Shown: piece after piece, positions 1-4,083 of the stretch | How the letters are laid out: every line of letters begins with the position of its first letter | Position numbering within the stretch: position 1 is the first letter of the stretch | DNA from: a virus | IMG/VR virus record: IMGVR_UViG_3300031857_001155 | Span: 1-26,714 of that record | DNA length: 26,714 nucleotides | Direction: 5' to 3' (one strand) | Position numbers and translations under genes: made by a program | Notes under the pieces: model-generated | What the model was told of the DNA's origin: nothing | Databases searched by the model: none | What the model saw: the letters and a program-made list of their open reading frames with translations, nothing else

Positions 1-1087
1 AGTCGTCCGAGGGGTGAGCGGTCATGCCGTTGAACGTCTTTACGAGTCCGAGATCCAGCATTGCACGTTGGCGCCCATATGGGTGATCCTTAATCTTGCA
101 AGAAGACCAGACGGAATCAAAGCAGAGGTGATCGTAGTCCGATCCTGGTTTGACATAGTTTTCCACCCATCGAATGAAGTCACAGCAGACGTCTTCGGCG
201 TTATAAGGATAGGCCCCGGTATCAGCATAAATCTTCTCCATTACCTTGTCAAGAAATACTTCTTGCTTCAATCTATCTGTGTTGTTTGCCAGGTACGAGA
301 TGCACTCGACTGCGTTCGTACCGTAGTAGAACGGGCTTTCGAGATTGACGTACTCTGGATACCAGTCAGCGATATCTGCTACGACAGCTGCATATTGGAA
401 CTTGTACTGGCGGAGACCGTTGGCAACATTCCATGCCAGCATCCAGTCGCCGATCTCACGAAGATCTCTCTTGGCATTGCTGGCCTGCAACCACTCGGCC
501 AAATCGCGTGCTAGTCGTGGAGCAAACTCTGAGAGGTAGTAGTCGCCACCCTTCTTGTAGTTAGAACCGGCCGGTACCTTCGGGAATGCAGGGAACTGAT
601 AACCAACCGACGTATAGAACGGATACGGATGGTGGTTGACACGCCGAACCATGTCCTCAATCGACATACACTCGTACAGATGAGGAAGTAGTGTGTTGTG
701 ATAACCTGACGGCTTCTTCGAGTAGTTGATTCCAGAGCCAGTTACACGATGCAAGATGAAGACATACAGCCATTCTGGGAGACTAAAATCAGCATGCTTG
801 CCCGTCCAATCGCGCGCAATGTACCCACGTTCGCGTGTATGGATTCCTTTTTCCATCTTATGGAAGTATGGATGTTCTGGTGTCCAACCATAGAAGACGT
901 CGTTAATGATCTGAGAGAAGCCGGCAAACTTCCGTTCTACGACGTCATAGAGTTCGACGTTCTCGAGGAGATCGTCGTTCATATTACTTTCAAGGTATGG
1001 AATCGTGCCTAGGTTGCACTTTGCCTGTTGGTCTTTGGCCAGTTCAAAGTATCGTAGATACTCATCATAATATTCTGTCATTTCCAT
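1..1087 (-). CDS. Partial large ORF, candidate DNA-base hypermodification enzyme (left edge)
   Basis: Reading the minus strand from ATG at 1087 (a second ATG follows at 1081) there is no stop codon down to position 2, so at least 361 codons are open and the C-terminus lies outside the window. The gene starts 5 nt after the dCMP deaminase stop and is the last visible member of the nucleotide-modification cassette. The product is soluble-looking and rich in aromatic residues. Distinctive segments are HRVTGSGINYSKKPSGYHNT (about residues 118-137), YTSVGYQFPAFPKVPAG (about 160-177) and ESPFYYGTNAVECISYLANN (about 267-286). From memory these resemble phage proteins labelled amino acid:DNA transferase or glutamyl/putrescinyl-thymine pyrophosphorylase, which act on activated hydroxymethyl-pyrimidines in DNA. 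I cannot verify that, so the reading frame is sure and the function is only a candidate. Confidence 0.75.
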   Translation of the reverse strand, partial: MEMTEYYDEYLRYFELAKDQQAKCNLGTIPYLESNMNDDLLENVELYDVVERKFAGFSQIINDVFYGWTPEHPYFHKMEKGIHTRERGYIARDWTGKHADFSLPEWLYVFILHRVTGSGINYSKKPSGYHNTLLPHLYECMSIEDMVRRVNHHPYPFYTSVGYQFPAFPKVPAGSNYKKGGDYYLSEFAPRLARDLAEWLQASNAKRDLREIGDWMLAWNVANGLRQYKFQYAAVVADIADWYPEYVNLESPFYYGTNAVECISYLANNTDRLKQEVFLDKVMEKIYADTGAYPYNAEDVCCDFIRWVENYVKPGSDYDHLCFDSVWSSCKIKDHPYGRQRAMLDLGLVKTFNGMTAHPSDD

Positions 1088-1092
1088 AATTT

Positions 1093-1536
1093 TTATACTT
1101 CATAAGTAAGAAATACGACGCCAGACTCTTTGAACATTTGCGATGTGGTCTTCATTGAATTGCGCCAGCGATCAGGAATATCCTTTGGGTACTCCATAAT
1201 CACACGCTTAATGCCAACCTGAATGATACCCTTTGCACATTCAGAACAGACAGGCAACCCAGTTACATACAATGTTGCACCGTCAAGAGAAGCACCAGAG
1301 TGACAGGCGTTGTAGATGGCATTCATCTCGCCATGCACAACATACTTATACTTCTCTTCGCGGTCTTCATAACGATCATCAGTGTCCTTGACACCACGTG
1401 GAAAACCATTATAACCCTGGCTGAGAATCTGCCCCTTCGTTCCTACGGCAACGGCGCCGACCTTGACAGACGGATCCTTTGACCACTTTGAAACTTCACT
1501 GGCAATATCCAGATAACGGCGTGTCCACTTATTCAT
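1093..1536 (-). CDS. cd: dCMP deaminase
   Basis: 147-residue zinc-dependent deoxycytidylate deaminase, converting dCMP to dUMP to feed dTMP synthesis. The zinc and catalytic motif is HGEMNAI (His68, Glu70) and the second zinc motif is CSEC (Cys97, Cys100). The substrate-side motif GYNGFPRG (about 41-48) is typical of the family. It has Gly where most relatives have Ala in HAE, and Val between Pro and the first Cys. It is shorter than T4 Cd (193 residues), so the extra regulatory part of T4 Cd is probably reduced. The start overlaps the gene 42 stop as TAATG, which suggests translational coupling. In a phage that also hydroxymethylates dCMP, this enzyme splits the dCMP pool between thymine and modified cytosine. 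Confidence 0.93.
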   Translation of the reverse strand: MNKWTRRYLDIASEVSKWSKDPSVKVGAVAVGTKGQILSQGYNGFPRGVKDTDDRYEDREEKYKYVVHGEMNAIYNACHSGASLDGATLYVTGLPVCSECAKGIIQVGIKRVIMEYPKDIPDRWRNSMKTTSQMFKESGVVFLTYEV

Positions 1537-2186
1537 TACTTTACCTTATCGAAATGGCGCTCATAAACGTGAAGCGATCCAACATGCCAAATAATATGTG
1601 GTTCCTTTGTGAGATTCAGGTCTGCAGACAGACAATCAGCAACATACTTCTGCCATGCGTAATCATTACGATAACCAAAGACAACGTCATTCGAACGCAT
1701 CTGAACAACAGCAATTAGCTGATTGTCGCGAATCATGTACTGAACCGTATTGGTGCACATGAAATCACTCATACCATCACGGTTGTAATCTTCCCACATC
1801 GAAGGACGAGTATAGATCATCACAGCACGACGACTATTCGGCGAGAAGGTCAGTTCATTGAGAACCCGAGAGTGCTGAAGGTAGTTGTCCTTGTGCCAGA
1901 TAGCCCAGCCATAGTTCGAGTTAATCTTGCCAGAACGGTCGGCAACCTGCTGCCAGATAGCCGGAGTCTTACCAGGAATATCCTCGACATAAAGAGACAT
2001 CGACTTGTACCACTCGAGCTCGCGCTCGACATAGTCCTCATTGACCTCACCAAAGATCATCGGTTCATTTGCCTCGAAGGTGGCACCGATCATCTCGATA
2101 GTCTTGACACCGGTCTTATCAACAACAAAGCGTTCTGACTTCAGTTCTTGAATGAAGTAATCACGAATATACTCGACCTTAAGCAT
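1536..2186 (-). CDS. 42: Deoxycytidylate 5-hydroxymethylase (gp42-like)
   Basis: 216-residue member of the thymidylate synthase superfamily. Long stretches such as VVDKTGVKTIEMIGATF and IWQQVADRSGKINSNYGWAI match T4 gp42 as I remember it. The nucleophile is Cys144 in DFMCTNTVQY, the phosphate-binding segment is RSND (164-167), and Asp175 in GYRNDYAW sits where thymidylate synthase has the Asn that selects dUMP. Relative to T4 gp42 (Cys148, Asp179, Glu60) the offset is a constant 4, and Glu56 fills the Glu60 position. This points to dCMP plus methylene-tetrahydrofolate giving 5-hydroxymethyl-dCMP. It ends about 25-30 residues before the T4 C-terminus. The start overlaps the Nmad1 gene by 8 nt, with an AAGGTG ribosome site. 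Confidence 0.93.
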   Translation of the reverse strand: MLKVEYIRDYFIQELKSERFVVDKTGVKTIEMIGATFEANEPMIFGEVNEDYVERELEWYKSMSLYVEDIPGKTPAIWQQVADRSGKINSNYGWAIWHKDNYLQHSRVLNELTFSPNSRRAVMIYTRPSMWEDYNRDGMSDFMCTNTVQYMIRDNQLIAVVQMRSNDVVFGYRNDYAWQKYVADCLSADLNLTKEPHIIWHVGSLHVYERHFDKVK

Positions 2187-2520
2187 CGAACTTCACCTTC
2201 TTTGGTCGGTTGAGATAGTCACGGTTCGGATCCTGGCCTTCCATCTTGCCACGAATGTACGAGACGGCAAAGCTGGCGTAGTTGATCAGGTCCTTATAGG
2301 TGTCTTCGAGCGACTCGAAGTTAGCAGTCGAGCCAGACTCAAGCAGAGACTGTGCACGAAGCATCTTGCCATGCATCGTGTCATGGATCGAGTCGACACC
2401 ACGACGATAGTGCATTGCCTGCACCACGTTCGAGTTGGGATTCTGATAATCCTGAGACTTCTTGAGCTGCAACTCGATGCACTCTTGCAGGACTTTTACT
2501 GATTCGCGTTCATTAGACAT
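2179..2520 (-). CDS. Nmad1-like nucleotide-modification-associated protein
   Basis: 113 residues, apparently all-helical. The segments KSQDYQNPNSNVVQA (about 21-35), RRGVDSIHDTMHGKMLR (about 39-55) and NFESLEDTYKDLINYASFAV (about 68-87) match what I remember of nucleotide modification associated domain 1 (DUF1599), common in marine T4-like phages and found next to base-modification genes. The biochemical role of the family is not established. Here it lies directly upstream of gene 42 and overlaps it by 8 nt, and it overlaps the preceding 177-residue gene by 8 nt, so the four genes down to the left edge look co-translated. Family assignment is fairly confident; function is inferred only from company. 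Confidence 0.8.
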   Translation of the reverse strand: MSNERESVKVLQECIELQLKKSQDYQNPNSNVVQAMHYRRGVDSIHDTMHGKMLRAQSLLESGSTANFESLEDTYKDLINYASFAVSYIRGKMEGQDPNRDYLNRPKKVKFDA

Positions 2521-3681: not shown

Positions 3682-4083
3682 TTATTTTAGTTTTGATAAC
3701 AAACCGTGATTGCCACTATGGTCCGGAGCAACCCACCATTCAGGCTTGATCAGGTCCGGCAACCCAAGTGGATTCGGACGGCTTGCCTTCACGCCGACTT
3801 GCTTATTCATATTTGCGTCGTGTACTTCATTCCATGCAAGACGAGGATTCACGTCAAATGCATTCAGAGTGCCGATAGCAACCACACACAGGTCGATAAG
3901 GGCATCAACAATCTCTTCAGGATTGTCCATGTTGTCCTTCAGTTCATTCAGTTCCTCTTCAAGGAACTTGACACGAAACTCGAGGAACTGCTTCAGCTTC
4001 TCGGCGTCAAACTGACGCACCTTTTCATTCACACCGTACTTGGTGTGCATATCTTCAATATCACTTACCCAATCCATACTCAT
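3682..4083 (-). CDS. MazG-like nucleotide pyrophosphohydrolase
   Basis: 133-residue all-alpha NTP pyrophosphohydrolase. The metal-binding acidic helices are visible: LEEELNEL (41-48) and EEIVDALIDL (56-65), followed by the family's EVHDANMNK motif (86-94). Such enzymes cut nucleoside triphosphates to monophosphate and pyrophosphate; marine T4-like phages often label this form phosphoribosyl-ATP pyrophosphohydrolase-like. The tail PEWWVAPDHSGNHG is a distinct C-terminal extension. It has a strong ribosome site (AAGGAG, 8 nt upstream). Because the phage carries a gp42-type hydroxymethylase, this enzyme could do the job of T4 gp56 (dCTP removal). That is inference; a housekeeping or ppGpp-lowering role, as proposed for cyanophage MazG, is an alternative. 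Confidence 0.87.
   Translation of the reverse strand: MSMDWVSDIEDMHTKYGVNEKVRQFDAEKLKQFLEFRVKFLEEELNELKDNMDNPEEIVDALIDLCVVAIGTLNAFDVNPRLAWNEVHDANMNKQVGVKASRPNPLGLPDLIKPEWWVAPDHSGNHGLLSKLK

Follow-up and report, generated by a model that had tools for sequence, protein, structure and literature searches.

Hypermodification of hydroxymethylcytosine (hmC) has long been known from T-even phages, whose hmC is glucosylated; in T4 this involves gp42 and alpha- or beta-glucosyltransferase. TET-phages also carry hypermodified 5hmC, and we know of no core made of a PLP enzyme and a protein of the amino acid:DNA transferase (ADDT) superfamily in TET-type systems or in Shewanella phage Thanatos. In the latter, cytosine is modified with a pentose (PMC12838424). 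Like the system proposed here, Thanatos and the TET-phages represent cytosine hypermodification by phages, but through sugar or TET-derived routes. The nearest characterised systems, those of Pseudomonas phage M6, Salmonella phage ViI and Delftia phage PhiW-14, all modify thymidine and include an ADDT. In M6 the ADDT adjoins a fold-II PLP enzyme, and the gene of a P-loop 5-HMdU kinase directly precedes that of HMUDK_hel (PF18723).

The Locus and the Gene c0

The stretch of DNA analysed here (the window, 26,714 bases) is an entire IMG/VR record and belongs to a T4-like phage. The features considered, all on the minus strand, are the following:

2..1087, minus strand: c0, end missing at the contig edge, 362 of about 383 codons; predicted helical protein, putative member of the aGPT-PPlase/HMUDK_hel/ADDT superfamily
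167..205, minus strand: C-terminal signature YNAEDVCCDFIRW (E-x3-C-x3-[KR]), common to the c0, c4, HMUDK_hel and ADDT families
1093..1536, minus strand: dCMP deaminase (PF00383, E 4e-22; phrog_174)
1536..2186, minus strand: gp42-like dCMP hydroxymethylase (PF00303; phrog_160, E 6e-55), with Asp at the base-specificity position (MRSNDVVFGYRNDY)
2179..2520, minus strand: Nmad1/DUF1599 nucleotide-modification-associated protein (PF07659, E 7e-7)
3682..4083, minus strand: MazG-like nucleotide pyrophosphohydrolase (PF01503)

An earlier note on this DNA had described a long open frame after dCMP deaminase, gp42 and an Nmad1-like gene. The frame begins with an ATG at 1087 and stays open for 362 codons until it meets the contig edge (base 2), and the identity of the neighbours was confirmed by Pfam. 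The MazG-like protein is possibly a nucleotide-pool enzyme and may be tied to the modification system. The complete c0, of 383 aa, was read from a second contig (L082), which overlaps the window end over 7,374 nt with 99.76% identity.

A first scan of viral contigs with c0 returned 82 relatives, of which 80 were kept (68-99% identical); a second scan, of IMG/VR with an alignment as query, returned at least 508, and four more were found in GTDB metagenome bins with 60-82% identity. The dN/dS values of c0 against its relatives were 0.03-0.11. It is a genuine gene under purifying selection, far beyond chance, and the plus-strand ORF at 2..514 is taken as its antisense by-product. No additional loci were obtained when the viral-contig scan was seeded with the most distant relative (L138), and a tblastn search of a cultured-phage collection found relatives of neither c0 nor c4, a second gene described below. 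In a single contig (L077:4218-5184) the c0 frame is interrupted after 158 codons, by an assembly error or an insertion.

Family and Predicted Fold of c0

The c0 ORF and the family alignments had no match in Pfam, PHROGs, NCBIfam or the PDB sequences. The Pfam ADDT model (PF18724), whose use the earlier note had proposed as a check, recovered ViI, M6 and PhiW-14; it gave no match to 16 and 20 members of the c0 family at E<=10 and left c0 unmatched when it was run on the genomes of nine relatives. With the Pfam HMUDK_hel model both c0 and c4 were below detection, and the direct profile-profile comparison of c0 with ADDT scored 18.5, which is the control level, that is, background. A weak PDB sequence match to a TatD nuclease (E 0.03-0.13) was dismissed as noise.

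The structure of c0 was predicted by AlphaFold with 35 relatives, and an all-helical model of medium confidence was obtained (pLDDT 74.5). A PDB fold search with this model returned nothing. In a viral structure library, the best Foldseek match was a 68%-identical protein labelled in UniProt as amino acid:DNA transferase domain-containing, followed at ranks 2-3 by uncharacterised relatives with 28% and 23% identity. Further matches were a second ADDT-labelled protein (E 4e-4), a clade 1 aGPT-PPlase (prob 0.99) and, alongside two unnamed proteins, the HMUDK_hel of PhiW-14 (prob 0.44); matches past rank 8 were noise. The ADDT-labelled matches are c0 or c4 relatives that carry the name by UniProt label, and the ADDT of M6 or ViI was not identified among the matches. 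Together with aGPT-PPlase1 and the PhiW-14 HMUDK_hel, they are the only named matches with prob >0.4.

The second gene, c4, encodes about 330 aa and often lies downstream of c0; it is present in 65 of 104 loci (16 of 29 after dereplication). Its predicted structure (pLDDT 87.4) is better than the c0 model, and Foldseek paired it with aGPT-PPlase1 (prob 1.00, E 6e-4), with a c0-family protein (prob 1.00, E 1.4e-3) and with two HMUDK_hel proteins (prob 0.99 and 0.97). Among the proteins with a name, HMUDK_hel and aGPT-PPlase clade 1 match c0 and c4 best in structure. The profile alignment of c4 with HMUDK_hel extended over 147 columns (E 0.003), and the Pfam ADDT model matched no c4 member tested. 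Judging from the models, the affinity to the superfamily is stronger in this sister gene than in c0. We also considered c4 as an essential partner and rejected it, as neither contig G002, 164 kb in length, nor the L082 operon, which represents the window's own lineage, contains it.

Profile-profile comparison linked the families in a chain, with marginal E-values: c0 with c4 (E 0.012), c4 with HMUDK_hel (E 0.003) and HMUDK_hel with ADDT (E 0.001). Control pairs mostly scored <22, and since a few unrelated ones reached 25-27, the c0-c4 score does not settle the matter by itself. The signature E-x3-C-x(2-3)-[KR] occurs in 100% of c0, 97% of c4, 96% of HMUDK_hel and 97% of ADDT sequences, and in 0-6% of those of eight control families; considering that it was defined after viewing the family alignments, it supports kinship and does not prove it. 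The helical fold, the C-terminal signature and the marginal profile chain place c0, as far as prediction can, in the aGPT-PPlase/HMUDK_hel/ADDT superfamily. With the ADDT proteins of M6, ViI and PhiW-14 it would have in common the helical superfamily, on transitive and structural evidence, as well as the signature; unlike them, it has no Pfam match, and no direct profile similarity to them. Because the Pfam ADDT model and the direct profile comparison both fail, we describe c0 as a new family of the superfamily and not as a demonstrated ADDT. By analogy, c0 may attach amino acids to 5-hydroxymethyl pyrimidines that have been activated in the DNA.

The likeness to ADDT-type proteins that the earlier note had put forward is accordingly upheld in part: the predicted fold does group with the aGPT-PPlase, HMUDK_hel and ADDT proteins of hydroxymethyluracil phages, and the PLP neighbour is of the M6 type, but the Pfam ADDT and HMUDK_hel models and the c0-ADDT profile comparison lend it nothing. 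The three segments quoted as marks of a transferase do occur in c0 (residues 113-122, 158-169 and 250-263; window 751-722, 616-581 and 340-299), but they are specific to the c0 family; the signature that c0 has in common with the known families is located elsewhere, in YNAEDVCCDFIRW at 205-167.

The Conserved Gene Set

The gene neighbourhood was surveyed in 113 c0 loci, which form 30 lineages at 90% identity; the denominators given are the contigs with a long enough flank. Downstream of c0, the gene c1 was found in 99/99 loci (25/25 dereplicated) and c2 in 85/85 (22/22), and upstream of it gp42 was found in 61/67 (15/19). In L082, c0 and c1 overlap by ATGA.

The product of c1 belongs to the fold-II PLP enzymes, with matches to phrog_7093 (threonine dehydratase, E 1e-37) and to cysteine synthase in the PDB (E 1e-4), and its alignment conserves the PLP lysine and the phosphate loop. 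Searched against the ORFs of the ADDT loci, the c1 profile matched only the M6-type PLP enzyme that adjoins ADDT (best E 1.5e-7; M6 itself, 6e-6). The partner of c0 and that of the M6 ADDT belong to the same clade. The c2 proteins have invariant GDSH, GxIDxRxH and H motifs, which we take to recall SGNH hydrolases. The model of T4 beta-glucosyltransferase (PF09198) matched the N-terminus of 6 of 19 c2 members, with a best E of 3e-4 and 20.8 bits, under the cut-off of 27; in the records G001, G002 and G004, c2 was its sole match.

Other operon genes depend on the lineage; the product of one is GT-A-like, that of another C5-methylase-like. The latter, a homologue of C5-cytosine methylases (PF00145), is seen at L110:14072-15271 and also in L117, L116, L137 and L020, and it is an operon insert in 8 loci; PCAG replaces PCQG in it, and the classical SAM motif I was not seen by eye.

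The Expected Base and the Proposed Pathway

In thymidylate synthase and T4 gp42, Asn at the specificity position selects U and Asp selects C. The gp42 of the window, a homologue of T4 gp42, has 67% identity with dCMP hydroxymethylases of the T4 type and the motif MRSNDVVFG[YF]RNDY in common with RB5. All 73 of its relatives carry Asp at the position in question, as RB5 does, and M6, ViI and PhiW-14 have Asn. The records G001-G004 (117-167 kb) contain no thymidylate-synthase-family gene besides gp42. Taking into account the 67% identity, the constant Asp and the lone gene of this family, hmC and not hmU is the expected substrate, and at the level of sequence it is likely that the c0 system acts on it; the hmC cassette of the earlier note is thus borne out with regard to gp42, a dCMP-type hydroxymethylase. 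Both the ADDT phages and the c0 phages would therefore make a 5-hydroxymethyl pyrimidine, but the base differs. In RB5 the gene of a modifying enzyme adjoins gp42, and in the window dCMP deaminase and c0 occupy that slot. Unlike in T4, the modifying enzyme would not be a glucosyltransferase, and the core includes a PLP enzyme.

We lean towards the reading that c0 serves T4-like phages as an enzyme of DNA-base hypermodification and acts post-replicatively on hmC, most likely with amino-acid-type chemistry. From its strong homology, gp42 would make hydroxymethyl-dCMP, and hmC would be incorporated into DNA as in T4. The next step, as superfamily and context suggest, would be the recognition of DNA-borne hmC by c0, which would replace the hydroxyl of the base or put a substituent on it. 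An amino acid is the most likely group to be attached, and c1 might trim or rearrange it, for example by decarboxylation. With its SGNH motifs and possible beta-glucosyltransferase-like N-terminus, c2 may act on the same group or on the DNA, and c4, the GT-A-like protein and the C5-methylase-like protein would be lineage-dependent additions. Resistance to host nucleases is the presumable purpose.

A profile of M6-type 5-HMdU kinases recovered those of M6, ViI and PhiW-14 (E 1e-100 to 1e-16) and nothing in G001-G004, records which may be incomplete; a search for a P-loop kinase among the c0 operon genes found none either. Since this kinase, a part of the thymidine pathway, did not turn up, activation and chemistry are both inferred. 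Either another kinase serves or the activation is different, and this absence is the main weakness of carrying the thymidine pathway over to cytosine in a simple manner. In many viral-contig loci of L211-L268, it is a helicase-like P-loop protein (GPPGTGKTTYLL), and not an M6-type kinase, that lies ahead of HMUDK_hel.

It is also conceivable, though rather doubtful, that c0 acts on hmC otherwise than as an amino-acid transferase, either as a base-flipping or base-presenting partner similar to HMUDK_hel or in sugar or acyl transfer, with the PLP enzyme making a different small substituent. This would agree with the look of c0 and c4, which are closer to HMUDK_hel and aGPT-PPlase1 than to ADDT, and with the base kinase not found in G001-G004, but the HMUDK_hel of M6 goes with, and follows, precisely the P-loop kinase that the c0 phages are missing. 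The weak beta-glucosyltransferase-like N-terminus of c2 is in its favour as well, and two cultured phages treated below make sugar chemistry a live alternative, namely Luna18, where HMUDK_hel lies near glycosyltransferases and a dCMP-type hydroxymethylase, and phage 25, where a c2 relative lies near a UDP-galactopyranose mutase; against this, an M6-type PLP partner as invariable as c1 fits amino-acid chemistry. We regard it as improbable that c0 has an unrelated function, as a metabolic enzyme, a DNA repair glycosylase-like protein or a structural protein merely neighbouring gp42: the missing curated family and PDB matches would be in keeping with it, and the superfamily fold matches, the common signature and the fixed c0-c1-c2 set argue against it. 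That thymine or hydroxymethyluracil is the target, as it is in M6, ViI and PhiW-14, is scarcely credible with a T4-type gp42 that has Asp where those phages have Asn and with no second thymidylate-synthase-family gene in G001-G004, even if the nearest characterised systems modify thymidine and the dCMP deaminase could supply dUMP.

The earlier note had called hypermodification of hmC a combination that it did not know as described. Glucosylated hmC takes away the general claim, and in the reading that we prefer the novelty would be confined to the amino-acid-type chemistry: no description of an amino-acid modification of hmC was found in the open-access literature searched, to which the central papers on hypermodification of thymidine and on the TET route do not belong. 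Tentatively, these uncultured T4-like phages could hold the first amino-acid-type cytosine hypermodification, carried out by ADDT-superfamily, PLP and SGNH-like proteins on hmC made by gp42, with an activation other than by 5-HMdU kinase. If this is true, amino-acid hypermodification reaches beyond thymine to cytosine, abundant environmental T4-like phages possess a new protective DNA chemistry, and the compact set of three genes named here can be tested directly in laboratory E. coli with a T4 hmC background.

Related Proteins in Cultured Phages

In Aeromonas phages of the 44RR type, which are T4-like too, a homologue of c2 forms one fused protein with a C-terminal HMUDK_hel-like region. The protein of 44RR2.8t, ORF233c (L271:7001-9388), is a single hypothetical protein of 795 aa in which homology to c2 takes up the N-terminal half (E 5e-39), and the same arrangement is seen in phages 31, AS4 and others; homologues of c0 and c1 were not found in 44RR. 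The Pfam HMUDK_hel model matched the C-terminal region below threshold in two orthologues that are 80% identical (E 0.0036 and 0.0029). Since the c0 and c4 profiles gave no signal in this region, the link rests on these sub-threshold matches, and in ORF233c cultured T4-like phages have a candidate enzyme of DNA modification.

Luna18 (L277), a cultured Microbacterium phage, has an Asp-type hydroxymethylase, a protein that clearly matches HMUDK_hel (E 4e-31) and two proteins annotated as glycosyltransferases. Its gp50, gp53 and gp45-47 comprise the thymidylate-synthase-like hydroxymethylase, HMUDK_hel, the glycosyltransferases and an annotated thymidylate kinase. Cytosine hypermodification is probable in Luna18, and perhaps many Microbacterium phages do likewise. 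By their sequences, the 44RR-type phages and Luna18 would both carry a protein of the superfamily where hmC is expected to be made. If the proposed reading is true, it also ties to DNA-base modification some hypothetical genes of phages that have been known for long (44RR, 31, Microbacterium phages).

In Aeromonas phage 25 a c2 relative is close to a UDP-galactopyranose mutase, and therefore sugars are indicated there. Its two neighbours were considered as kin of c0 or c4 and rejected, one being this mutase and the other unrelated. Among the genes tested in the neighbourhoods of Effie and ctokW459 there was no superfamily member. Acinetobacter phage Effie (L279) has an Asp-type hydroxymethylase and a dCMP deaminase with a carbamoyltransferase-like protein nearby, and carbamoylated hmC is possible in it. 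Finally, gp050 of Tenacibaculum phage PTm1 (L276:5566-6585), located beside ribonucleotide reductase genes, is a weak relative of the c2-like N-terminal part of ORF233c (25% over 187 aa, E 3e-8).
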